Positions 13,990-55,810 of a stretch of DNA of 64,000 bases are shown here, in pieces (the first letter of the stretch is position 1; each line of letters begins with the position of its first letter). A program made the position numbers and the translations under genes. The DNA is from Golubevia sp. BC0850 (Eukaryota > Basidiomycota > Exobasidiomycetes > Golubeviales > Golubeviaceae). The notes beneath the pieces were generated by a model, which did not search any database, was not told where the DNA came from, and saw nothing but the letters and a program-made list of their open reading frames with translations. The DNA lies in NCBI GenBank assembly GCA_012976225.1, contig JAAVVG010000025.1, forward strand, positions 124,001 to 188,000. The letters are read 5' to 3'.

Positions 13990-15132
13990 TCAAGGAGCAC
14001 CGAGCCCTTTCCCATCAGCAGCAATTCTATCAATTTCGACTTCATCCTCCAATCCCATTTCCACGAAAAAGTTTCTCAATCCTTTGGGATCAGCTCCACC
14101 TAGATCCACCTTACTTTTCTCTCCACTTTCAGCTTCAATTCCAATCCCAGCTTCATCCAAAAGGTTCTTATAGGAAGCTCTCAAAGCATAAAGAGCAGGG
14201 AAAATCCCGGCAGTTGGGAAGATAGCTAACTTGAATCCTAGAGCTTGAGCATCTTTTCTTCTCCAAAGAGGAGTTTTACCACCAGTGATACAATTTACTA
14301 GAATTGGCCATGGTGCAAAGTGGGAAGTCACTGCGGAGGCTTCTGAATCTTTGGTGATACCTTCAAGGAAACCAATGTCAGCTCCATTTCGACGAGCAGC
14401 TTCTAGACGTGAGATTGCTGCTTCGTAACCGTCGGTAGCTAAGGCATCGGTTCTTGCTATAAGCATGATTCTGTCTTCTGGTGGGCATGGAAGTTTGGAG
14501 ATGGCATCTGAGGAAGGGAAAAAACAGATGAAAGAAAGAGTCATTTGCACATCGCTTTACGCTGGGCGATGTGAAGCAAGTGTACTCACACGAAGCAGCT
14601 TTGATACGTTGAACGAAAATATCAACTCCTACCAATTGCTTAGAATCAAGATGTCCACATCTCTTTGAAGCTCTATCCAAATGGAAGAAGTGAAAGTGGA
14701 GGTTTGAACCAGTTTCTCAATCTGTCCAAAGCAGCGACTTCTACAAATACTCCAAACCACTCACACCTGATCTTCAATGTGTAAAGCAGCAATTCCATTT
14801 CTATGGTATTCCTGAATAGTTCTAGCAACTTGAGGAGCTCCACCGAATCCAACATCGGCATCTGCAATGACAGGTACGATTTCTTTACCGCTACTCGCAA
14901 TTTGAGCTGAAAGACCAGCTTCTCTAACCATATCTGACATGGAAAGAAATCCTAAATCTGCTCTTCCAAGGGCAGAGGCACTGCTGCCAGCTCCAGTTTG
15001 GTAGAGAACTTGAGCTCCACAGTTGATTGCGACTCGAGCTGAGATTCCGTCGTCGACTCCTACGGCTGTGACGATCGAATCTTGGGAGAGGAGTTGACGA
15101 AGTTTTGAGGCTGGGGATTGGTAGTTTGACAT
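13990..15132 (-). CDS. isocitrate lyase / PEP mutase superfamily enzyme (oxaloacetase- or methylisocitrate-lyase-like)
   Basis: Three exons: 15132-14765, 14672-14590 and 14507-13990, 322 residues. The TIM-barrel signatures of the superfamily are present: an N-terminal SPASKLRQLLSQDSIVTAVG, the metal-binding VPVIADADVGFGGAPQVART (D91, D93), IAALHIEDQV, the K-R-C-G-H active-site motif (K126-H130, Cys128 the likely general base) and MLIARTDALATDGYEAAISR. At about 320 residues it matches small family members such as methylisocitrate lyase, oxaloacetate acetylhydrolase and petal-death-like lyases rather than glyoxylate-cycle isocitrate lyase (over 500 residues). It likely cleaves or hydrolyses a C-C bond in a 2-oxo or 2-hydroxy dicarboxylate; the exact substrate cannot be read from the sequence. 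Splice phases are consistent, and ATG 15132 follows a short AT-rich leader. Confidence 0.88.
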
Positions 15133-20057: not shown

Positions 20058-21301
20058 ATGGCTTCAACAAAGATAGCTCCTGGGTCAACCATTCTCGTTA
20101 CTGGAGCTGATGGCTTTATTGGATCTGCGGTCGTTACCCAGCTCCTGGTCCAAGGCTTCAGAGTAAAAGGCACCTCTCAAAGTCAACTCAGGCTCGAAGA
20201 ATTCAAGAAGAAGGCAGACCAGGAGTTCGGAACTGACAAATTTGAGATCGTTGGGGGAATCCCTGACTTGGCCGTCAAAGGTGTATTGGATAACTACTTG
20301 GAAGGTAAGGAGAGTAGAATCAAATCGTTCTCATTCAGTCAGTGCCCCTCCCGACTGACCACTCGTGCCTTTCTTACCTTCCACCCCACCAGGCGTCTCA
20401 GGACTCATCAACGTCGCAGCCGACACTTCTTTTGGGAGTGACTTGAAGAAAACAGTTCAAGACGCTGTCTCCCTCATCGAAGGAGTTCTTAATTCTGCAA
20501 AAACAGCTGCGGAAATGAAATCGGTGGTCTTGACGTCATCAAGGATAGCGGCTTTCAGACCAAACGGTACTTCTCAAAGAATCTCCGACAAGGAATGGTT
20601 CGATGAAGCACCAAATCTGTACGACAAGGTCCCAGACCAGATGAAAGGTGCAATCACTTATGCCTCGTCTAAAGTCGCTGGAGAGAGGGCAGCTTGGAAA
20701 TGGACGGAGACCGAGAAGGTGAGTGAGCTTTTGATGTGGAAAGGATGGAGAGTGAGTCTGACCTCAAATTTCCCCCATCTTCCAGCCTGATTTCAGAGGT
20801 GAGCAGGATTCTCAAAAAGTTCTTGGATTTTGATTGGTCTTCTTTACTGACCGACCTTTCCTTTCTATCAAACCTCCAGTCAACACCGTGCTCCCTGATG
20901 TCGTTTTAGGGAAGATTCACAATCCAGCCGAAGGAAATTACTCTACCGCTACTGGTCTGATACAATTCTCCAAAGGAGACTCAGGAATGCTCGAAATGCT
21001 TCTCCGTTCTCCCGTTTGGTTCGTCGACGTTGAGGACGTAGCCAAGCTTCACGTTGCCGCTCTCATAGACGAGACTGTCGATCGACAGAGAATCTGGGCC
21101 GCTTCAGCACCTTTCTGTGCTTCTGAGGTCCAGGGAGCCCTGAAAGAAGTCAAACCTGACTATAAAGAAAGAGATGTCTCTGCTTACCCTCCACGTCCAG
21201 ATATTGTGATCGACAACAGCAAGAGTATCGCACTTTTGGAGAAGCACTATGGCTCCGGTTTCAACGCTCTCAAGACTGCTGTCAAGGCAAACCTTTTGTA
21301 G
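20058..21301 (+). CDS. extended short-chain dehydrogenase/reductase (GRE2-like aldehyde/ketone reductase)
   Basis: Four exons: 20058-20304, 20393-20718, a 13-base microexon 20786-20798, and 20880-21301; 335 residues. The NAD(P)-binding motif TGADGFIG is at residues 15-22, and the catalytic YASSK (Y172, K176) follows a conserved VLTSS. The microexon supplies KPDFR and joins to VNTVLPDVVLG, the position where family members have 'kP.f....i.P...lG'. The C-terminal half has WFVDVEDVAKLHVAALID, typical of the dihydroflavonol-reductase/GRE2 branch. The enzyme probably reduces aldehydes, ketones or methylglyoxal with NADPH; the substrate is not determinable. All four junctions keep phase. It ends 390 bases before the convergent stop of GID9. 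Confidence 0.9.
20786..20798 (+). other. 13-base microexon of the SDR gene
   Basis: CCTGATTTCAGAG is bounded by 'cttccag' and 'gtgagcag'. It joins phase 0 on the left and phase 1 on the right, and restores the conserved reading KPDFR-VNTVLP. Without it the flanking exons are out of phase. Confidence 0.85.
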
Positions 21302-31189: not shown

Positions 31190-32667
31190 TCTAAACCTCT
31201 CTCATTCACTCCCCACCCCAGAGTTCAACCTTTGTCTCCCCAGCAGCTTCTATCATTCCTCTAGAGCATCTTGACAGGAGAGCTTTCTCGGCAGTCTTGA
31301 AAGCTTCGAAGTGACCCGATTCTAGACGAAGAGTCAAACTTGAGCACCTTTCTTCATCTGCTTCTTTCGATTTTTAATTTCTGGAAGAATGATTACGAGA
31401 GAAGAGCACTTCTGCTAGAAGAGTGACATCGAAGACCAGATTCCTGCTAATTGAGAGTTGACATAGAACAGGTAAGGAATGAGGAAGTGCTAGACCGACT
31501 TGAAGGTAACGAAGGAAGAAGTCAACAGAGGAGAAAGTGTCATAATGTTGTCCCTCTTTGAGTAGCTGGAGCTTCTTTAAAGAAGATCCTTTCTTGCACG
31601 CCAGAGCTCCGTCTCACGTCTCTTTCTCTGCTCATCCCAATCCCAACATGAGCCCAACTCTACAGCTTGCCCAAGTAGAAATGGTTAGAGCTGGTAAAGA
31701 CGCTGCAGTGCGGTGAGTGTGTAATAGGAATTCGAGCCAAGGGGAGCTAGCGGGTGACTAGCAGAGCAGATCTCAGAGCTTGGATGGGCAGTTTCTGAAA
31801 TGATCTCATCTCCTGACTCACAGAGCCCTAAGAGCTGTTTGTGGAAATGGCGAGTTCCGAGGAGAATGGAGAGAGAGGATTGGCTGGCTTCCGGGCTGGT
31901 ATCACTATGTGAGTTGGGCATTTTTTCTTTCTAGATGGACTTCCCTCTCAATGCCTTCTTTGCTGATCTGACCCTTCTTCTCTTACTCCACTCGCTCAGC
32001 TTCTGGCTCACTCGGCTAGTTTCCTACTGATCTTGTTGCATCGTCGATCGACTTTTTTGAGTGCGGGAGAGAGTAGCCTTCAGTTTGGAGAGCCACTTGA
32101 TGTCCTCCTCCGACCAACCGCATTCCCCCTTCTTGCCTCTGTTCCAAACGCGACCAGATCTCCCAGAACATCAAACTCGAATTCAGGAAGTTGAAACCCA
32201 GTGAGATTTAAACGTTCTAACTTCGGGAAGGATTGAAAGTAGTGGACAACGTCATCGTAAAAAACGTAAATGACATCCTCATAGCCTTTGTTGAAATCTT
32301 CGGAAGATCCTTCGGTTCCTACCCAAATCATAGGGAGCACGTCACTGTCGAAGGAGTCTAGACGAAGATCTATTGCTCTTATAGTCCGTTTTGAGAGTTC
32401 CAGTAGAGCACAGACTCTCGCAGCTTCTTCGTTGGGGAATTCTGTTGGGCTCTTAATTGAAACCAGAGTATTTCTAGAACGTTTAGCGAACACCTCAATG
32501 ATCTTGACAGTGTGCTTTGGAGTTGGTAGATCGATGTGTCTCCAGAGAGTTGAAGTGTTGAGAAGGACCTCCTTCCATCCTTTGCAAACACTCATAGTTA
32601 AACCCAGTTCGATAGTAGAGAGGTGACTGAAAGTAGAAGAGACCACTTCTGAGGGTAGTTGCTCCAT
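31190..32667 (-). pseudogene. F-box/LRR protein, copy 1 (broken, with internal insertion)
   Basis: Starts with MEQLPSEVVSSTFSHLSTIE at 32667, an F-box (LPSEVVSSTF...L....VCKGWKEV...LWR.I). It continues IDLRLDSFDSDVLPMIWVGT and FPKLERLNLTGFQLPEFEFD, then changes phase at VAFGTEARR (homologous codons resume as CGWSEEDIKWLSKLKAT). The LRR middle present in the copy at 40039 is missing and is replaced by unrelated sequence (about 31605-32070). The C-terminal part resumes at 31600-31190 (KKLQLLKEGQHYDTFSSVDF, FLRYLQVGLALPHSLPVLCQ, TLRLESGHFEAFKTAEKALL). F-box proteins of this kind serve as SCF substrate adaptors. This copy is probably non-functional, although a 195-residue N-terminal frame remains open. 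Confidence 0.7.
31648..32189 (+). CDS. possible small spliced gene inside F-box copy 1
   Basis: On the strand opposite F-box copy 1, three segments join with good splice sites and consistent phase: 31648-31712 (MSPTLQLAQVEMVRAGKDAA VR), 31824-31908 (ALRAVCGNGEFRGEWRERIG, WLPGWYHY) and 32000-32189 (LLAHSASFLLILLHRRSTFL ...). Donors are gtgagtgt and gtgagttg; acceptors are ctcacag and gctcag. The last exon runs into antisense F-box sequence after about residue 75, so its end is chimeric. No family is recognised; the hydrophobic stretch could be a membrane segment. It may be a captured fragment of another gene or a chance arrangement. Confidence 0.25.
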
Positions 32668-33115
32668 CTTGAAGTGACCTTCACGAATGGAGATGATGGA
32701 GAGTGAGGAGCGGAGTCGCTGTAAGCACAAATCCGAAGAAGAGTGAAACGAGAAAACGGCCCTCGATCAGATTCTTGAAGTTATTGATTCACTTACGATT
32801 GATTGAGGTAGTCATTGCTAAAAAGGAGATTGAAAGTGAGGATGAAGATGAAGCTCGCGGTGCTGGTGAACTGCCCTCGCTCGCTGAGTCTCGTTCCGAT
32901 CTCGTCGAGTAGAGAGGCTGTCGGGTGAAGTGAAAGCCAGTTTAAAGCTTTTTGTTTTATATAGGTCCTCGAAGAGATTAAGGAAGTGAATTGATAATCA
33001 GGAAGCAAGAAACGTCTCGCGCTGCAGCTGGATCCTTCTTCTTCCCCCACACATCCATCTTCAATCGATCATCCATAGAAAGAACATCCAATTCTATTCA
33101 ACTCAAATTCAAAAA
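32668..33115. other. divergent intergenic region
   Basis: Between F-box copy 1 and the SNF5-family gene. Only short frames; it must contain the SNF5 promoter and an AT-rich leader. Confidence 0.4.
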
Positions 33116-38191: not shown

Positions 38192-40038
38192 GAAGCAAAG
38201 ATGTACGTTGGAGCGACTGGAAAAGTGAGTTTTGAACGAGCTTTGACAGTTTCGGATATCGAGATGGAATGGAGATATGGAAGTTGACAATCGACCAATC
38301 TTTTCCTTCTCAATCAGACCTTTTCTGACTTTCAATCCGACACAAAGTCTCGAGCTCCAATATCTGAAGGCTAGAACCAACCCCTCTCTCATTCAAGGAC
38401 TATCATGCAGCACTTCACCCAAAGCACAATTTCGAAACAAACTCAGTAGGTTCCCTTCAACAATGCTGTTCTTCAAGAATCATGTCTTTTCAACAACCTT
38501 TTCTCCCAGAAACTCTCTTCCGTCGAACCTGTCTCGTAACTATGAATCCTAGGTTTCTCACATCGTCGCCTTCAAAGTCTTCGACTTTCTTCCACGGAAT
38601 AATTTTTCCACGGAATAATTTTGTTACACGTCACTTGGGTCACTAAATCTGTCACTGTCGTTACTCTTCCCACCTTCTCCCTTTCGTTTCTTGACGACTT
38701 TGTCTCATGTTCTGCTCGAATAATAGATCTTCGCCTTTGTCTTTCCCATGATTGTGGCTTTAATCCATTCACTCACACAAGCTGCGAACGTGATCAATCC
38801 CCACTGAGAGCCCAACAGAAGCTCTACCGCAGACAGATGACAACAGAGTCTGAAGAGAAGGCGAGACGGTATAGCCTCGCGAACTGACGAGCTCGCCTTG
38901 TCTAGAACTGAGTGAATTTGATGGCGAACTAAGGTGGCAATCAATCCGGAAGCCTTTCGCTGGAAAGAAGAGAGCAAGGAGAGAGAGAGAACAAGGGAAG
39001 GACTTGGAAGCAGAGAGCTCATCCTCATACCTTTCTTCTCCGACTCTCCTGACTCTTATACACTGGCGCATGCAGCCAACTTACCCGGCGTAAGCGGAAA
39101 GATCTCTACATAAGAGCCACCCTCTGCTCATGCAAGTCATCTCTTATCACTTCTCAGAGTCTCTCTTTCCTTAGAAGAGAACATCTCTTATCCCTGCCTA
39201 ACGCCATCATCTTCATACCATCTGCCCTCTACGTCGGGAATATGCAGATAAGAATCAAATTTCTGATACTTACTCACAGGAGGACAAGCCATCAGACCCA
39301 GCGCTGCTTCTTCCAACCGACATGCGCCATCTTCCCTCTCTGTCTTGCCCCTTCCCTTCTGTTACCTCAGATATCGACACGATGAATGGGTCAGCCCAAA
39401 GACTTTTCGTTCCTTGAGACAGGCGTTGGATAATTTTGATACTTGATTGGAGAATGTTTGACCTCTGAAAGAAGGAAGCGGACATGGGCTTGAGGGAACA
39501 ATCGCTTGGGCTAGATCATTGGGTACTGCAGTTCAAAGGCTGATGGCGATGGGTACTCCTGTTGAAACATTAGGAAATCGAAAAAAGAAGGAGGTTGATG
39601 CCTGATTGGGTGAAGTGAGGGATCGAGAGAAGCTCGTTTTGAATTTTTGTTAGCCGCTTTACCCTCTTCCTTTCTTACTCTTCACTAAGAATCACCTTTT
39701 CTCTCTTGATCTCTTCAAAATCTTTACGGAAAAGGCTGGCAAGTAGCTTTCGTCTCAATTAACAGCCTCTCCTAGACGAGCTCGGAACGAGACTCCTCGA
39801 GCGAAGAACAGCTTACAAGTTACAGCACTGCAAGTATCATCTTTCGACCTCAGTTCAATCTCTTCCTTAGCAATGACTAGCTCTACCAAAGGTAATTTAA
39901 CCAAGAGCTTTGAGAATCCGATCGAAGTCGTCTCTTTGGTTCCTCTCCTTCAGATGATCTAACACCAGCTCTCTCGCTCTCATCACTATCCTCTAACCTC
40001 TATGTCTTCGTCATCTTCATTCGCGAAGGTCACTTAAG
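38192..40038. other. long intergenic region with short tandem repeat
   Basis: About 1.85 kb without a supported gene. A 16-base unit is tandemly duplicated at 38589-38620 (ttccacggaataattt twice). Frames up to 107 codons have no family features. The last about 170 bases are the leader of the F-box gene at 40039, including a small upstream ATG frame at about 39872 with a gtaattt donor-like site. Confidence 0.4.
38589..38620. repeat. 16-base tandem duplication
   Basis: The unit ttccacggaataattt is present twice, head to tail and identical, in the intergenic region before the F-box gene. Confidence 0.9.
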
Positions 40039-41371
40039 ATGGAGCAACTACCCTCAGAAGTGGTCTCTTCTACTTTCAGTCACCTCTCTACTATCGAACT
40101 GGGTTTAACTATGAGTGTTTGCAAAGGATGGAAGGAGGTCCTTCTCAACACTTCAACTCTCTGGAGACACATCGATCTACCGACCCCAAAGCACACTGTC
40201 AAGATCATCGAGGTGTTCGCTTCACGTTCTAGAAATACTCTGGTATCAATCAAGGGTACAGCAGACTTTAATGCACAAGAAGCTAAGAAGGTCTTCTGTT
40301 TACTGGAACTCTCAAAACGGACTGTAAGAGCAATAGATCTTCGTTTAGATGATTTCGCCAATGATTATCTTCCTCTGATTAGGCTGGGTGGCTGTTTAGA
40401 TGATGACTGTTACGCGGAAGATTGTGCAGATTATGAATTCTTTCACCGCGTTCTCCTCTTCTTTCAATCCTTTCCGAAGTTAGAGCGTTTAAATCTCACT
40501 GGGTCTCAACTTCCTGAAGTCGAGGTTGATGTTCTGGGAGATCTGGTCGTGTTTGGAACAGAGACAACAGAAGAACGTGGTTGGTCAGAGGAGAAGATTA
40601 GATGGCTCTCAAAATTGAAGGTTGCTAGTGTGTACATCGATACTGCACAAGGATTCGCGGCCCTGTCACGTGTTCTCTCAGCTTGTACATCCACTCTTTC
40701 ACACCTCCAGATTCAAGGCTTCATTGAGAAGATCCTTTCTGCTATGACGCTGAATCATTTAGAACACCTGGAAGTCGACAACAATTTTTTTGATGAAATT
40801 TTCGAGAAGGTGGAACTGCCAAACCTCAAACACATCAATCTTTACCAGGGATCGTCAATTTTAGAGAGCAAGCATAAATATTTGAAATCTTTGCTGATTG
40901 AAGCTTGGGAGGATGAAACGGGTGAATCGCAGAAGATGATAGTCTCACCCAATCTGAGAACTTGATTCGAATAATCAGATGTCAAGAATCCACTTTAAAG
41001 AAACTTCAGCTATCCAGGAAAAGTGATGATTACCCAACTTTCTCCTCCATTGACTTCTTCCTTCGGTATCTTCAAGTCGGTTTAGCCCTTCCACCACCTT
41101 TACCTCTTTTATCTCAACTCTCAATCAGCAAAGATCTAGTTTTGATGCCAATCTTTGAGCCGAAGTGCTTCTGTCTCGTAATCATTCTTCCAGAAATTAA
41201 AAATCGAAAGAAGCAGATGAAGAAAGGTGCTCAAGTTTGACTCTTCGTCTAGAATCGGGTCACTTCGAAGCTTTCAAGACTGCCGAGAAAGCTCTCCTGT
41301 CAAGATGCTCTAGAGGAATGATAGAAACTGCTGGGAAGACAAAGGTTGAACTCTGGGATGGGAAGCAGTAG
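40039..41371 (+). CDS. F-box/LRR protein, copy 2 (best preserved)
   Basis: An open frame 40039-40965 gives 308 residues. It has an N-terminal F-box (MEQLPSEVVSSTFSHLSTIE, VCKGWKEVLLNTSTLWRHID), then leucine-rich-repeat-like segments: FPKLERLNLTGSQLPEVEVD, WLSKLKVASVYIDTAQGFAA, LSRVLSACTSTLSHLQIQGF, LNHLEHLEVDNNFFDEIFEK, LPNLKHINLYQGSS. It stops at VSPNLRT. Homology to the other copies continues immediately downstream in another phase (40930-41370: SENLIRIIRCQESTLKKLQL, FFLRYLQVGLALPPPLPLLS, TLRLESGHFEAFKTAEKALL, ETAGKTKVELWDGKQ), so the ancestral protein was about 430 residues and this copy has probably lost its C-terminal third through a frameshift near 40925. F-box proteins of this type link substrates to the Skp1-Cul1 ubiquitin ligase. 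The first 61 residues are identical to copy 1. Confidence 0.65.
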
Positions 41372-42281: not shown

Positions 42282-42632
42282 CTATTGTTGGTCGATTTTG
42301 GCTTTGAAATCGATGATGGAGAGTCTCTCTAATCTGGGAAGCGTAGCAATTGAGTTGAAGGCTGCCTTAGCAATTGGACTTGGATTCGCTGCATCTTCAA
42401 CGTCTACTATTAGTCTCTTGATCCTTCTTTTAACATCTGGTCTGGCCTCCATCCATTGAGTCCTTTCGGAGAGGGATTCGTCGAAGGAACCGGATGGACG
42501 AAGAGTTGAGAAACGTAGAGGAGAGGAGATTGGATAGAAGTCTTGACAGACTAGAACTAGGTCCTCGGAAGAAATGGAAGCTAGCTCGAACTACATAGAT
42601 AAGATCTCTTGAGGAAGTAGACGTAGAGACAT
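42282..42632 (-). pseudogene. F-box domain relic of a second type, with in-frame stop
   Basis: One frame of 117 codons from ATG 42632 to TAG 42284-42282 contains a single internal TAG at codon 14 (42593-42591). Around it the sequence reads LPQEILSM-stop-FELASISSEDLVLVC QDFYPISSPLRFSTL, a good F-box core (LP.EIL..f......DL..vC..F..i). It continues SLSERTQWMEARPDVKRRIK and RLIVDVEDAANPSPIAKAAF, ending LPRLERLSIIDFKAKIDQQ. This differs from the MEQLP family in the window. The codons after the stop are well preserved, so the stop is either recent, read through, or a base-call error. Downstream parts expected for an F-box/LRR protein are not recognisable. Confidence 0.55.
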
Positions 42633-43114
42633 GGCTGGTAGACGACGACGTGATTTAAAGAGAATGGATATTAACCTGGATCGACTGCTTTTGAGAGTTT
42701 GTTGATGACTGCTCCAAGACGTGCTCTTGCGAAGTCTGTTCAGCACCTGAAAAATGGAGGAATAGAAAGTGAGCGGACATTCCAAGCAGGAAGACGATGG
42801 AACCCCACAAGTGTAGGAAGCCAGAGCGAAGCGAAGGTTCTCTGTTGAAAAGGGCAGACAGGATGCAGACTCTTTCTTCTATCGTACTCACCTAGATAGA
42901 GAAACGTTCAGAGCGTGTCGAACAGTAAAAGAAAGGGCGGAATGGTTCGAAGAAAACCGACAAGGAGCCTGCGACAACTTAAAAGAAGCGTGGCGCAGGA
43001 GTCGCAAATAACACACAACATTTGCGCATCAAATAAGCTGCTAGACGAGATTCACTCACGGAATTTCATTCAGTTAATCGGAGAACAGATTCCAAACTTG
43101 AACGACTCGGAAAG
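42633..43114. other. intergenic, no gene seen
   Basis: Between the F-box relic and SFM1, divergent. Only short frames. Confidence 0.4.
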
Positions 43115-44438
43115 ATGAGCGTCTCGGATAGGAAACGTCCAGAGTACGTCGTTGAGCATATGGAAGAGGATGATCCTGATGCACCTGCCAAGTTCCCGAC
43201 GTGGGCACTATTAGAGTGAGTAGCAGCTTGATAGACATCGAATAGTTTCATGAGCTGGACTTAGAAGGAGCAGGTATGAGAAAGGTGTTGTGGTTCAGGG
43301 ACGGGACAGAGGTAGAAGAGTTTTGAAAAACTTTCCTCAGTACGCTTCCATGCTTGATTGTTGTTCTGAACCTCGAAAGCTATTTAACTTTTGGATTCTC
43401 TGTATTTCGGCACTCTTCTTCATCCTCACAGGGTAAGTCTCTTGTCTCCTAAGATCTTTCCGTTTCCCTCCTCTCACTCTCACTCTCTCTTCCCTCATAG
43501 TATCGTCACATGCTGGAACTTGTAGGATCGGGTTCCACAGTTCACTTCACATCGCTTTCGAAAGCTTCTTTGGAGTCTCTTCGGAAAGAGCTTTCGTCCT
43601 CGGCCTCCTCTTCTTCCTCGAGTCCAGCAGCAGCATTCGAGCTTCACACCTCTTCGATTACAACTCTCATGTCCGAGAGGAATTGGGAACTCAAGAAGGT
43701 CTGCCTCTTGGATCCAAGAGCTCCGAAATCTCTGAGTGTCAGAGATGCTGGTTTCAACGCTGAGAAACTCCAGAGGGTTTCAGAAGATGAAGAAATCTTC
43801 ACTCACTTTCTATTCGGAGGAATCTTGGGAGATGACCCTCCCAGAGATAGGACAGCTAGTCTTAGACAGCTAGGATTCCCAGGAGTGAGTCTTCCATGAG
43901 TCTCCTTTCGCTCTTGATAGATGTATGCCACTTTCTGTTCTTCTTTTCTGACATGCCCTCCCTTCTGCCCTTCCTACGCAACAGCGTCATCTAGGAACTG
44001 TTCAAATGACAACAGATACTGCTATGGGAGTCACGAAGAGAGTAGTCGAAGACGGTCTTCATATGAAGTTAGAGAAAAAAGATGGTGAACGCAAAGACGA
44101 GGAGAAAGGTGAAAGTCTGACTTGGGTGAATCAGCCTGAGCTCAAGTTTGGGGGTGGAGAATCTGTGAGTGATGCCTTTCAACTTCATCTTAGTCGAACG
44201 TAGCTCGATCGATATCTTGAAGCTCTGACCATCAGACCTCTGCGTTCCTTTCCTTCTCTTTCTCTACTCTGGCTCCTCTTCAAATGTCTTTCGCCTGTCT
44301 CTCAATGAAACACAAAAGGTGGAGATGCCATTCAGATACATGGCGGAAGACCCATCGGCGAAAGTTCTGAGACCTCTCATGCCGAAAGGTATGAGAGAGC
44401 TCATCAGATCCGACCTCGACAGAGCCTTTGAATTCTAG
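43115..44438 (+). CDS. SFM1: SPOUT protein-arginine methyltransferase Sfm1
   Basis: Five visible exons: 43115-43215, a single base at 43432, 43501-43884, 43985-44164 and 44319-44438, 261 residues. The start MSVSDRKRPEYVVEHMEEDD fits the family N-terminus. FPTWALLEYRHMLELVGSGS is restored only if one G is spliced in between exons 1 and 3. VHFTSLSK, CLLDPRAPKSLS, the knot signature FLFGGILGDDPPRDRT, LRQLGFPGRHLGTVQMTTDT, VEMPFRYM and LMPKGMRELIRSDL follow. Yeast Sfm1 monomethylates Arg146 of ribosomal protein Rps3 and is a SPOUT-fold enzyme. The exon 3 frame has a stop (tag, 43498-43500) immediately before TAT at 43501, so its start cannot be moved upstream, and exon 1 has no alternative in-phase GT donor. 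It is convergent with the hydrolase ending at 44583. Confidence 0.92.
43432..43432 (+). other. SFM1: candidate single-nucleotide exon (G) of SFM1
   Basis: The local sequence is 'catcctcacag|G|gtaagtct', a strong acceptor and a strong donor separated by one base. Exon 1 ends GA (then gtgagtag) and the next exon starts TAT after 'ccctcatag', so one base is required to read GAG-TAT (the conserved L-E-Y-R-H). Flanking introns would be 43216-43431 (216 bases) and 43433-43500 (68 bases). Confidence 0.75.
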
Positions 44439-46577: not shown

Positions 46578-49408
46578 TTAAAGTCTATCGGCAGCTTGAG
46601 TTGGAGCTGGACCTGCGACTCCTCTTTTCTTTTGAGCTTGAGCCCCATTACAAGGCCAACCTGTGGGAGTCCAATCTTCAACTGCGTAAACGTCTGGAGG
46701 ATAAGTACAACCTTGAACTTCCACGTACCAAGGTTGCAAGTCGTTTGGATTGTAAGTAGCTATAGGAGTTGAAGTGGTGACGATGGAACCCGAAGGAGCA
46801 AAAGTTGGTAGCTGGATTGCACTTCCGGTCTTTGTCCAAACAGGTAAAGAAGCAGAATTGACCTCGGTACTTCTCATCGTAGCTGGAGGCCAAGGATGTT
46901 GACTTTTGTCAACAGTCGAATAAAGATCAGCTCCACCTGTCATCCAATCTTGGAAAGATCCATCCCAGTTTCCATTCAAAGGAGATCCATTTACAGCACA
47001 AGCAGCACTTGAAGTTCCAGCATTTCTACTGACTCCGTAAGGATCAGTAGGCATCCATCCTTCTTGTAAACCTAATTTATAATTCCACATTGGGGTTAAA
47101 CTTTTCCCATTTCTTAACGAATCTCCAGTTCTCCAAGTCCAGAAAAAGAAATTTTGAAGGGCATCGATTTGAACTTGCATAAATTGATTGAAGTTGTCTT
47201 TTCTATCTTGACTCCACGAAGACCAATCATCCCAGGTTGCGCATGAACCGAAACCAGAACCGGTCTGTTCGGAGTGAGTTCCTTCGAATCTTTGACCTTC
47301 TCCTACGTTGTTCAGGAAAAGTCCACAATCGTTGATCGCAAGACTGAATTCTCCAGCCACTGTGACTCCCATTTGACTAAGAGCAGTGTCTGCAGTTCCA
47401 CTGTACCACATGCAAGGTCGAGGCAGTAGAGTATCCCAATCCGTCGTGTAGTCTCCGTTGAAAGCCATGTAAGGGTGGAAGTCCCACTAGAGATAGATAA
47501 AACAGAAGAAAGAGGTGAGTCAGTCGAATGTCTGGGCAGGAGAAGGGGAAAAGGGGAGGCTCGATCTTGTCGACATCGCCGCGGCACTCACAGCAACTCT
47601 ATCCGTTCCTGCCAAGAAGCCATTCCAAGGATCAAGTCCTAAGAATCCATCATGGAGAACAATGTAAGGTCCGTTTCCCTTTCCATATCCAGTAACGTTT
47701 CGAATCGTCTCGTAAGCCTCGGCAGTCCAGCTCATAGCTGTTTCGAGTCCAATCTCTGAACCAGTGATTCGAAGCTCGTTGACGATACTGAACATCGGAA
47801 CCACTGGTGCGATATCAGGTCTTGAGATGAATTCTGTAATGATTCGAAGGTAGTTGAGAGAACGTTGACCATTCACAAGACCCAGCTTTCCCTGAAGCCA
47901 ACCTATCGATCCTGGACCCCCTTTTCCTGAGTGGTTGTAGCTGGAAGAAAGCAACAAGACGAGGGTTTGATCAGAGTCTGCTCTGTCGCCTCACATCGTT
48001 ACCCCTCTGTGCTGTTCTGAAAATCACTTCCCCGTCGACTCACCCGTTTTGACTTCCAGGAACTGTCGAACCAAAGGAGATCAAGAAGCGAGACGGTCTC
48101 AATAGCGTTTCGTAGATTGCTTCTCAATCGAATCCCTCGCCAGCTCAGGATCGCTTAGCAACAATCTGATAGAAGTACTCACCAGCGTGTAAGTCCAAGT
48201 TGATTCTCAACCCATACTTCCGAGCCCAAGTGATGGCTTTCAAGACGTACTCCCATGAGACGTGCTCTAAGAATGGCTCTGAATCCATCGTCTCGACAGC
48301 CCAGAATCCAATTGGGAGTCTAATCCAGTTTAAACCAGCAGCTGCGATCTCAGCGAAATCTTGTTCGGTGATGAAGCTGGAACGATCAGTAGCAAAGCGA
48401 GAGAGATAGATGAGCGCGTCAGTCGAAAAGGATCCAATAGAATGCTTCTCCGATCAAAAATAAGAAGCCAGAAGTCAAGGGAAGAGAAGCCAAAACTCCT
48501 TAGAAGACTTACGTGTCGTAATGTTCTCTCATCTTACTCTCCAACAAAGCTTGACCACCTTCAGCAATGTACTGTTGACAAAGAGAGTACTCATCGATTA
48601 CTGGAGTACTTGAATTCTCGTATGGTTCGTATAGAGATGGGACGATGAAGGGCTCTGTCAGTAGCCAACCTCCGACGTTGCTGTTTCAGGGGAAGAGAGT
48701 CGTCAGCACTTCAAGTCAAGAATCAAAAGAGCGGCAACACGAAAACATAGAAGCACCTGCTACTTACACTCCTAAAATTCTATCAGTGGCATAGTTAAAC
48801 TCTTCTTCTAGAGGGGGAGTATAACTCTGAGCCTTGGCTTTGAAACTATTAGGATCTTCATCCCAACTTCCACCGAAACTGTTTCTATAAATGAAACTTT
48901 GACCATTCTCCATAGTTACACTACTTCCATCAATTCCAGTTTTGAAAGCTCTAATCGGTTCATTGTCATCTTCATTCGTGACCAATCCATCACCATTCGT
49001 GTCCTTCATAGCATCACCACTTCCATCTACACCATCAGAGTCATTTCTATGGTTGTAAAAGTAGACTCCAGCTCCAACACCTCCTCCGATCAGAGCTAAG
49101 GCAATCAGAACACCAATGATAGTCCATTTCCTCTTGTGAGACTTTTTGGAGGTTGGATAAGTATAAATGCCATTGTCTCCGTAGTACTTTGAAGAGGTGT
49201 CTCCGAGAGCGATTCTAGATGAATCCGATTCATTTAAAGCTACTGCTGATCCATTTTTTGATGAATCGTATAGGTCGGATTTGGAGGTGAAACCGGAGTT
49301 GTAGGAGTCTCGAAACCGTTCCGCTCCTTGGAAATGACCTGTTGTTTGAAGTGGTACGTATTGTGGATCTGATGAATAGTCTTGGTAGAAATGTGGCTGT
49401 CTAGACAT
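46578..49408 (-). CDS. membrane-anchored GH5 exo-beta-1,3-glucanase (glucan 1,3-beta-glucosidase)
   Basis: Six exons: 49408-48768, 48680-48513, 48376-48183, a 19-base microexon 48062-48044, 47940-47592 and 47486-46578, 759 residues. A cytoplasmic tail of about 94 residues precedes one membrane helix (about residues 95-118, KWTIIGVLIALALIGGGVGA), giving a type II, ExgD-like layout. The catalytic domain follows: NVGGWLLTEPFIVPSLYEPY, EIAAAGLNWIRLPIGFWAVE, GLRINLDLHAVPGSQNGYNH, then acid/base Glu396 in FSIVNELRI and nucleophile Glu503 in VTVAGEFSLAINDCG. The enzyme trims or remodels cell-wall beta-1,3-glucan. A short extracellular stalk contains DTNGDGLVTNED (residues 136-147), which resembles an EF-hand/dockerin calcium loop. 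A Pro/Thr-rich tail ends the protein. All five splices keep phase. Confidence 0.93.
48044..48062 (-). other. 19-base microexon of the GH5 glucanase
   Basis: TTCCTGGAAGTCAAAACGG is flanked by 'ttcgacag' and 'gtgagtcg' on the minus strand. It completes LDLHAVPGSQNGYNHSG, a conserved active-site stretch of GH5 exo-glucanases, and is required for phase between the neighbouring exons. Confidence 0.88.
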
Positions 49409-52667: not shown

Positions 52668-55600
52668 ATGTCAGCTGAAATTGAAGCCTCTGGAATCAAG
52701 TTCGACGATGTCGAGTCTATCCCAACTGTAAGTGACACAACTTGAGCCTGCTCTTGGAGGTGGAGCTAACCAGCATACCTCATTTCTTCCCAACCAACCC
52801 CCGCACTTCTTCTCAGCTGGTAAGCAAGCTGAGAGCTACTTTCCTGTCTGGTAAAACTCGTAATTTGGAATATAGAAAGAATCAATTGAAGCAATTATGT
52901 TTCATGTTAAACGTAAGTAATTGAGAGAGACTTGATTTTGGGTGGGGATGATGCTTCTCCGTGTAATTGTCCGCAATTGTTGGTCCGTGTAATTGTCCGC
53001 AATTGTTGGAGGAGTGGGAATATCAGCAAGTGCTTTCAAGGCCTACAAATTCCTATACCTCAAAAGGTATTCTACTAATGTAGAGCAAAGATTTGTTATT
53101 GTCAATCCCACGAGGAATTCAAGCTATAGATGCCCTAGCTTTTCACTTGCCTTCCAAACATCTCATCTTCTTTTCTTATCTCCACCTCTCATACCATGTT
53201 GAACGCCCCTTTAGGACAATGCCGATTTGATTGCTAAGACTATCGAAAAGGATCTAGGACGTCATAGATTCGAGTCCATCTTCGCAGAAGTCATGGGAAC
53301 TACTACTGAGATTATCGAAGCTATTGATCATTTGGACAAGTGGGCTAAGGAAGAAAGACCATGGAGTGGTTTGGCTTGGGCTATGCATGGAACGTGAGTC
53401 AGTCAGTCAAATGTCAAAGAGGGCAAAGAGAAAAAAGAATGGAGAAGGAGAGGAAGAAATATGGGAGGAGGGAGTTCCGAATTGGGAAATGATGGCTGTT
53501 CTCTTGAAGGAGGGACCCGCGTTCCCTCAATCAACAGGTTCTGAACAGTTTCATTGTACTCGCTATTTGAAAGATTTAATAGGAGGAATGAGGTGGTTGA
53601 GGCGCAATCGCTATTCAATGAAGACGACCAGGATTCTTAAGGTCTCCTCTTCAAATCCTCCGTTTTCAAACCCATGTATCAAAAAATATTATAGAAGCTC
53701 ATGAACAACTACATTGTTCCTCTGGAAACCAATTCACACCAGCTCGTCCAAAAATGCTCGACTGACCTCTCTACCTTCTCTGCAACTTCAATCCTCTAGC
53801 TTCATCAAGAAGGACCCCAAAGGAACTGTTCTCGTTTTAGGAGCTTGGAACTATCGTGAGTGTCTTCCTGGTCTTGGTTGAATCATTCAGAACGCACTTT
53901 CTCGATCCTCCCTGTGATAAATTTTCGAGATTCTGGCCACCAAAATTAACCCTCTTTCCACCTTCCCCCCTCTCTCCCTTCCTTTAACAACAGCTATCTC
54001 TGTTCAAGTCGGACCAATGATTGCTGCCATTGCTGCCGGAAACACTGTTGTAATGAAGGTAGGTCATCTCTCGACTTCATTTCCTCCCTCTTCCAATCTC
54101 TTCTCTCTCTTTCTCTTGCTCCCTCTAATTCAAACCTTCCCTCCCTGTCTTTGCTCTTCTTAGCCTTCTGAAATCTCTCCACACACCGCCAAGTTAATTC
54201 AAGAACTCTTCGTCAAGTACATGGATGCTGACTCTTACGCCATTGTAAATGGAGGAATCCCACAAGCCACTGCTCTTCTAGATCAACGTTTCGAACACAT
54301 CTTCTACACTGGAAATGGTGCTGTTGGTAGAATCGTAGCTGAGAAAGCTGCTAAATGGCTTTGTCCTACCACTTTGGAATTGGGTGGAAAGAGTCCTGTC
54401 TATGTTGATGATAGCGCTGATCTCAAGATTGCTGCTCATAGGTGAGTGATTTCTACGGGTACAAATCTCAGCTCATGTCAGCTAGAGACGGTAGAGTCGG
54501 AACGATCTGAGCTGAGCTTCGACAGCAGAGGGAGCTGACCACTGTTGTCTTCGCCCGATTCTCTCCTCCTCTAGAATCCTGTGGGGAAAGGCTGTCAACA
54601 CTGCTCAAACCTGTATTGCTCCAGATTATATCATCTGCTCCCGCAAGATCCAAGACAAGCTAGTCGCTGAATTCAAGAAAGCCGCTGCTGAGTTCTGGCC
54701 TCAAGGAATCGCAAGCTCCAAAGATTACTCCAAGATTGTCAACAAAGGTCACTGGAACAGATTGACTAACATGTTGGATGGAAGTCAGGGTAAAGTCGTC
54801 ATGGGAGGTAGTAAAGAAGGAGTTGAAGATACAAAATACATGCCAATCACTATCTTGAAGGATATCAAGGAGGGTGATAGTGTCATGTCTGGAGGTGAGT
54901 TTCAAAGAAGGCGAAGTCATCATTACGAAAGTTTGGAGCTGAACTTTGAAACCTCCTCTTTTCACTCTCTCGTCGACAGAAATCTTCGGACCAATTCTTC
55001 CAATTATGCCAATCGATTCCATCAAGGGAGCAGTCGACTACATCAACTCTAAGGACCAACCTCTAGCTCTTTACATGTTCTCTTCAAACCAAAAGAACAC
55101 CGATTACATGTTCGACAACACTAGATCAGGTGCTTGTCTTCAAGGAGACGTTTTACTTCATTTCGCTGTCGGAAACCTACCTTTCGGAGGAACTGGTCCT
55201 GGTGAGTGTTTCTTGTTCTGACAGATAAATCTAACTACTTCAGCTTTCTTCGAACGCTTCGATTTCTTGATTTCTTTGCTCTTATCGAGCTCGAACTATC
55301 TCTCCTAAATTATCGAAAGCTAACTTCAGTTCCCCGCTCCTCTCTTTTCCCCTTTCCTCACTTCCTCATTGCTTCTATCCTTTCTTTCGCGTATCTCTAG
55401 CTGGGTACGGTTCTTATCACGGAAAGTATGGATTTGATACTTTCTCCCACCAACGTTCAGGAATGAACGCTCCATCTTCTGGAATCATGGGTAAAGTCAT
55501 CGAAATGGCAATGGCTCCAAGATATCCACCATACACTGATGCTAACTTGGCCAAGTTCAAACAATTGGTCGGTAAATCTCCAAATTTCAAGAGACCAAAG

Positions 55601-55810
55601 AACCCTCACTCTGCTGTCGCCACCAAGAGCGTGAGTACCACTTGAGAACTGTCTTCCTCCCCTTCCCTGTCCTCGGAGTCGCTTCTGATTTCTTCTTCTT
55701 TCTTCTAACAATAACAGTCTTCTCCAATTCTTCGTCGTCTAACCACCATCATAGCGCTTGTAGCTATCATTCTAGGAGCTCGTTCTCGTGGTTACATCAC
55801 TGCATTTTAA
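52668..55810 (+). CDS. HFD1: tail-anchored class 3 fatty aldehyde dehydrogenase (Hfd1-like)
   Basis: Ten exons: 52668-52727, 52817-52912, 53215-53393, 53800-53855, 53994-54058, 54164-54441, 54575-54894, 54980-55201, 55401-55630 and 55718-55810, 532 residues. Landmarks are KDPKGTVLVLGAWNYPISVQ, AIAAGNTVVMKPSEISPHTA, FYTGNGAVGRIVAEKAAKWL, LELGGKSPVYVD (general base Glu224), NTAQTCIAPDYIICSRKIQD (nucleophile Cys258), EIFGPILPIMPID and VGNLPFGGTGPAGYGSYHGK. The final exon encodes a hydrophobic tail (RRLTTIIALVAIILGARSRG), as in Hfd1/ALDH3A2 enzymes held on the ER or mitochondrial outer membrane. They oxidise long-chain aldehydes, including hexadecenal from sphingolipid breakdown. All phases agree. 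Introns 2 and 3 are unusually long (302 and 406 bases), and intron 2 carries a 26-base tandem duplication. Confidence 0.93.
52958..53009. repeat. 26-base tandem duplication in an HFD1 intron
   Basis: The unit starting tccgtgtaattgtccgcaat occurs twice, at 52958-52983 and 52984-53009, with no differences. The unit itself holds the near-palindrome attgtccgcaat. Confidence 0.95.

Follow-up and report, generated by a model that had tools for sequence, protein, structure and literature searches.

A predicted one-nucleotide coding exon in an SFM1-family methyltransferase gene of the basidiomycete Golubevia

Exons of a single nucleotide have rarely been reported, and the described cases closest to the gene considered here come from fungi and plants. 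In the CYP621A family of Fusarium a one-nucleotide exon is reported in all 24 genes, with 18 RNA reads from two species (PMC12940212, Nelson and Syed 2026). That paper ranks CYP621A second among one-nucleotide exons and first among those of fungal genes; earlier reports exist for plant VPS55 (PMC8831610, 2022) and for snoRNA host genes of the Candida parapsilosis group (PMC5033589, 2016). The plant genes APC11 and VPS55 each carry a one-nucleotide coding exon between GT-AG introns, backed by GFP minigenes (APC11), RNA-seq and RT-PCR and reported as conserved in diverse land plants (PMC4674806; PMC8831610). In VPS55 the exon is followed by a GTRAGT donor (PMC8831610). For APC11 sequential splicing has been proposed, the paper also arguing that a single nucleotide is too small for splicing machineries to assemble on its two sides at once (PMC4674806). 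Aligners easily lose such exons, as was shown for soybean APC11 (PMC8831610). In the Candida hosts (snR57-55-61 and cluster III) a nuclear one-nucleotide exon lies between spliced introns and next to stepwise, recursive or nested, splicing (PMC5033589). One-nucleotide exons are also described from mitochondria, in placozoan cox1 (PMC5436844) and beside the group II introns, which are non-spliceosomal, of fungal rnl (PMC12308204).

The gene described here lies on the forward strand of a 64,000-nucleotide stretch of DNA (hereafter the window) from Golubevia sp. BC0850 (Basidiomycota; assembly GCA_012976225.1, contig JAAVVG010000025.1, positions 124,001 to 188,000), and all coordinates below are those of the window. 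Exon 1 (43115 to 43215, 101 nt) runs from the start codon to GA, the first two bases of the codon for Glu34. It ends TTA-GA before gtgagt, and reading on past 43215 gives GAG TGA, a stop. Intron 1 (43216 to 43431, 216 nt, gtgagt...cacag; donor 7.16, acceptor 6.08) thus opens with an in-frame TGA. Predicted exon 2 is the lone G at 43432, the third base of the Glu34 codon, with tcatcctcacag upstream (cctcacag) and gtaagtct downstream. Intron 2 (43433 to 43500, 68 nt, gtaagtct...cctcatag; donor 7.00, acceptor 4.78) is followed by exon 3 (43501 to 43884, 384 nt), which opens TATCGTCAC directly after ccctcatag and reads TAT-CGT-CAC (Y35, R, H). The coordinates of these two flanking exon ends and of the lone G were given correctly by the original prediction, a reading of the letters that had proposed the single-nucleotide exon. 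The predicted mRNA junction is ...GCACTATTAGA-G-TATCGTCACATG... (GA-G-TAT).

Downstream, intron 3 (43885 to 43984, 100 nt, gtgagt...acag; donor 6.39, acceptor 5.14) precedes exon 4 (43985 to 44164, 180 nt), which contains QMTTDTA, and intron 4 (44165 to 44318, 154 nt, gtgagt...aaaag; donor 6.59) precedes exon 5 (44319 to 44438, 120 nt including the stop codon TAG), which encodes VEMPFRY; both exons aligned with yeast Sfm1. The intron 4 acceptor, aacacaaaag, is weak (−4.25) and adjoins no pyrimidine tract, and the last 70 nt of that intron hold neither CTRAY nor a relaxed branch-site match; the residues that follow it, VEMPFRY, are nonetheless right.

Like CYP621A, this is a fungal nuclear protein gene in which the putative exon is one G within the same AGGGT string, and in both cases the exon was deduced from a one-base gap in a conserved motif, the base completing the codon of a conserved residue (PMC12940212). 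The two differ in that the Fusarium G is the central base of a glycine codon and is backed by RNA, whereas the Golubevia G would be the third base of a glutamate codon and is read from sequence only. The Candida exons differ in lying within non-coding RNA and hence free of any reading-frame requirement (PMC5033589). The original prediction spoke of very few known single-nucleotide exons and named one, in a plant APC11 gene. Their scarcity stands, but the case is less exceptional than was claimed, as plant VPS55, Fusarium CYP621A and the Candida snoRNA hosts also have them. One-nucleotide exons are therefore already known, and SFM1 adds a predicted case to a rare set. No single-nucleotide exon in SFM1 or in any basidiomycete appeared in the titles and abstract openings returned by full-text searches of open-access literature. 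If RNA bears out the exon, SFM1 would rank, on the literature found, as the second protein-coding nuclear gene of a fungus to have one.

Joining the exons of 101, 1, 384, 180 and 120 nt yields a predicted product of 261 residues, which matches the Pfam family PF04252 (SFM1-like) with 208.8 bits (8e-62; cut-off 27) over profile positions 2 to 200 of 201, the alignment beginning at residue 11 of the product. The deduced protein is thus an SFM1-like SPOUT protein-arginine methyltransferase, the identity originally assigned to it. Structures of yeast Sfm1 (5c77, 5h5d) match it at 1.8e-21 and place WVILEYSQIL opposite WALLEYRHML without a gap; this comparison, which is one of protein only, indicates a shared family and shared Glu and Trp active-site positions. 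In yeast Sfm1 the arginine-binding pocket is formed by Glu9, Glu19 and Trp15, and the E19A substitution abolishes activity (PMC4860837). By the alignment Glu9, Trp15 and Glu19 correspond to E17, W30 and E34, and E34 requires the one-nucleotide exon. The predicted exon is thus the third base of the codon for an active-site glutamate, the equivalent of yeast Glu19. With A in place of G the codon would still specify Glu; with C or T it would specify Asp.

How many bases the joint must contain was judged against relatives. A prokaryote genome scan queried with a two-sequence alignment (the SFM1 product and yeast Sfm1) returned archaeal relatives only, 18 of them, and a scan of viral contigs for SFM1 relatives returned none. 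The archaeal proteins were gathered through the neighbouring motifs YVIEHM and FGGILGD and not through LEY, and were read from single open frames; they serve as intronless markers of length and are silent on intron evolution. W, E and Y are invariant in W-x-x-x-E-Y-x-x-x-x, and this block of ten residues is ungapped in 19 of 19 relatives (yeast and the 18 archaeal proteins). Because the exon 1 side reads W-A-L-L-(GA) and the exon 3 side Y-R-H-M-L, one purine is missing at the joint, and the frame is broken unless a purine sits between 43215 and 43501. That exactly one base is lacking between GA and TAT, as had been proposed, is in keeping with these alignments. Joining 43215 straight to 43501, with the exon skipped, gives ...WALLDIVTCWNL-stop; retention of intron 1 gives an immediate stop, and retention of intron 2 (68 nt) a shifted frame. 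As each of these outcomes shifts or stops the frame, only an mRNA that includes the one-nucleotide exon would be expected to encode an active enzyme.

The base that the frame and the conserved motif require stands at 43432 between an acceptor AG and a donor GT that are both usable. Splice sites were scored with matrices built from 45 introns predicted in the window, mostly without outside evidence, by a gene finder self-trained on the window; the finder set no minimum exon length, is rough, and passed over the one-nucleotide exon. SFM1 itself and one doubtful gene (42282 to 43069), in which the finder placed a zero-length exon, were excluded. Against medians of 7.51 for predicted donors and 6.18 for predicted acceptors, the two sites beside the G are ordinary good ones: 6.08 for the acceptor that precedes 43432 and 7.00 for the donor that starts at 43433, each exceeding the 5th percentile. 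Among the 456 AG-N-GT strings on the two strands of the window (231 and 225), that at 43432 is the sole one with both sites above the 5th percentiles, which bears out the description of a lone G between a good acceptor and a good donor. It was again the only string to pass leave-one-out thresholds taken from 36 introns of ten longer predicted genes (three of them checked against solved homologues and two matched to Pfam).

An AG-G-GT string of this kind would seldom arise by chance. In 20,000 dinucleotide shuffles of the 285-nt interval, an AG-[GA]-GT as strong as that observed appeared once, one above the 5th percentiles 31 times, and one exceeding the lowest scores among the training sites 118 times. 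A cruder estimate, which treats acceptor and donor as independent, expects 3.03 pairs per 128 kb at lenient cut-offs, or about 0.5% over the roughly 195 usable positions in the interval. The chance of such a string is therefore about 0.2 to 0.6% when the cut-offs are lenient, and about 0.005% for a site as strong as that observed. Pairs with no base at all between acceptor and donor (AG/GT, here and below the slash marking the splice boundary) are more frequent, 11 with both sites above lenient thresholds on the two strands of the window, whereas each spacing from 1 to 21 gave 0 to 6. This surplus probably reflects the overlap of the two motifs, although some of these pairs may be ratchet points.

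These figures bear on the explanation that best survives beside a one-nucleotide exon, namely that one base is missing from the assembly, or was recently lost in this strain, at the joint of exon 1 with the intron or of the intron with exon 3. The gene would then have one ordinary intron, some 285 nt long, and its AG-G-GT would be coincidental. A base lost at either joint explains the frame equally well, and since 4 of the 45 predicted introns in the window are at least 284 nt long, one long intron would be nothing unusual in length. However, this explanation needs the independent coincidence of the AG-G-GT string (about 0.005 to 0.6%). Frequent indel errors are also argued against, within the limits of a small sample, by 14 junctions in three other genes, encoding a fatty aldehyde dehydrogenase (52668 to 55810), an exo-1,3-beta-glucanase (46578 to 49408) and a dimethylmalate-lyase-like protein (13990 to 15132). 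All 14 lie inside alignments to solved homologues and are in-frame plain GT-AG junctions; 13 have no gap within three residues and one has a three-residue gap two residues away (two further junctions of the aldehyde dehydrogenase gene, outside its alignment, were left out). We consider a missing base unlikely.

Short exons are also read in two other genes of the window. The exo-1,3-beta-glucanase gene has a 19-nt microexon (48044 to 48062, reverse strand) that encodes part of VPGSQNG, and the protein joined across it aligns without a gap to the yeast glucanase 1h4p. A 13-nt exon is predicted at 20786 to 20798 on the forward strand (ttccag-CCTGATTTCAGAG-gtgagc) in a gene of the NAD-dependent epimerase type (20058 to 21301, PF01370).

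Ordinary GT-AG splicing in another pattern, through a longer internal exon or a different acceptor, would give an SFM1 with an insertion or deletion at LEY. To compare such patterns, we enumerated GT-AG models for the stretch that begins at the start codon and closes with exon 3. Each model had one or two introns, none shorter than 45 nt, and drew on a pool of 15 donors and 63 acceptors whose scores passed permissive cut-offs. Frame-keeping, stop-free models numbered 1700 (27 with one intron and 1673 with two), and a single one of them, that using G43432, preserved WALLEYRHML; the claim that SFM1 with its LEY motif needs a single-nucleotide exon thus withstood the enumeration. On splice and coding statistics alone this model ranked fifth, with four models 1.4 to 3.4 nats above it. 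The top model, a single intron from 43216 to 43622 (43215 joined to 43623), is also the choice of the gene finder, but it deletes the motif. The coding and length models lean slightly against the one-nucleotide exon, because their training included the SFM1 structure proposed by the finder, from which 43501 to 43622 is missing. One of the four higher-ranked models itself contains the same one-nucleotide exon, combined with an acceptor before 43642. Among the 31 two-intron models that read into YRHML, the runner-up lacks WALLE and scores 5.9 nats lower than the one-nucleotide model, and the best with an insertion 13.1 nats lower.

The alternatives delete or break the invariant W..LEY block, and the cost is seen in the match to the family: six alternative products, including those of three of the four higher-ranked models, lost 12.2 to 38.8 bits against PF04252, the product of the single intron 43216 to 43622 losing 38.3 bits. 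On these sequence comparisons homology outweighs the ranking by splice statistics that favours this single intron, and we regard ordinary alternative splicing as very improbable. Options for two introns with other ends were likewise lacking, as no AG-[GA]-GC, AC-[GA]-AT/GT or AG-[GA]-AT string occurs within 43216 to 43500.

A single intron with non-canonical ends, either 43217 to 43500 (TG-AG) or 43216 to 43499 (GT-TA), would leave the same coding sequence and an identical protein, so that protein and mature mRNA alone cannot tell it apart from a one-nucleotide exon; but to our knowledge neither TG-AG nor GT-TA is an established spliceosomal class, good canonical sites for two introns are already present, and this reading seems highly implausible. 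That the gene is a frame-shifted pseudogene, as the failure of enumerated models lacking the one-nucleotide exon to hold both frame and motif might suggest, is scarcely credible in view of the open frames of the remaining exons and a product of full length (261 residues, profile positions 2 to 200 of 201). We therefore think it very likely that this SFM1-family gene has a one-nucleotide internal coding exon, G43432, between two introns.

The two introns flanking the predicted exon are most likely removed stepwise, because one nucleotide leaves no room for U1 at 43433 together with U2AF/U2 at 43431. Each would be spliced by intron definition, one after the other, in either order. Removal of intron 1 first would turn the end of exon 1 into TTAGAG/gtaagtct, a near-ideal donor for intron 2, and the score of that donor rises from 7.00 to 7.48 (GAG/gtaagtc). 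Removal of intron 2 first would turn the acceptor of intron 1 into cctcacag/GTATCGT, with a rise from 6.08 to 8.03 (cacag/GT). Some features tell against this reading of two introns. The final 70 nt of both lack a CTRAY branch site, which 29 of the 45 training introns possess there; relaxed matches, which are common (42 of 45), are found 37 nt from the end of intron 1 (TTAAC) and 17 and 11 nt from the end of intron 2 (CTCAC). At 68 nt intron 2 is nearly the shortest in the set, with 1 of the 45 introns no longer than this, and its acceptor (4.78) falls below the lower quartile (4.98).

With two introns that would leave in steps, the arrangement resembles the [D1,2] stwintrons, where two U2 introns occupy one place and are spliced stepwise, removal of one completing or improving the donor of the other (PMC12403724). 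In [D1,2] stwintrons, however, the internal intron interrupts the donor after its first base and no exon remains (PMC12403724), whereas in SFM1 both donors are complete, the second being gtaagt, and G43432 stays between the introns. Readings as a stwintron or as a zero-length exon (ratchet point) were rejected, since one base has to remain in the mRNA. In three papers on stwintrons, the passages mentioning micro-exons or single nucleotides held nothing on one-nucleotide exons.

Two routes to the present arrangement may be envisaged. As has been proposed for CYP621A (PMC12940212), a G may have been lost from GAG/GTGAGT, with a cryptic AG-G-GT rescuing the gene. Alternatively, we infer, the donor at 43433 could be the older one and intron 1 a later gain, placed one base before it. 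A tandem duplication relating introns 1 and 2 gained no support, as their local alignment score of 21 is not beyond that of shuffled sequence (200 shuffles: mean 14.0, maximum 23). Elsewhere in the window, similar segments lie in inverted orientation, 32077 to 32702 with 40005 to 40621 (82.7% identity) and 31212 to 31538 with 41037 to 41362 (90.2%). The pair carries genes with the same start, the longer of which matches F-box; the copy at 32080 to 32667 is the shorter frame, with 196 against 309 codons, stop included.

Because a single nucleotide fixes both the frame and the codon of the active-site glutamate, the exon might conceivably work as a switch, the efficiency of two-step splicing setting the amount of active Sfm1; we hold this to be unlikely. 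If it were true, the skipped and retained forms would be frame-shifted and probably degraded, and methylation of the ribosomal protein Rps3 could be tied to splicing capacity or stress. In yeast, Sfm1 is reported to be downregulated in stressed cells (PMC7866298).

Few one-nucleotide coding exons are described in the literature found, and they are missed by annotation programs, including the finder trained on this very window. A further example, from a different fungal protein gene and a different protein family, would point to repeated origins of such exons at places where an intron interrupts an unchangeable motif. Since the residue whose codon the base would complete is essential in yeast, selection acting on one nucleotide should be easy to read here, and comparison with relatives could show how the exon originated, whether through loss of a base that a ready-made AG-G-GT rescued or through a second intron acquired one base before an existing donor.
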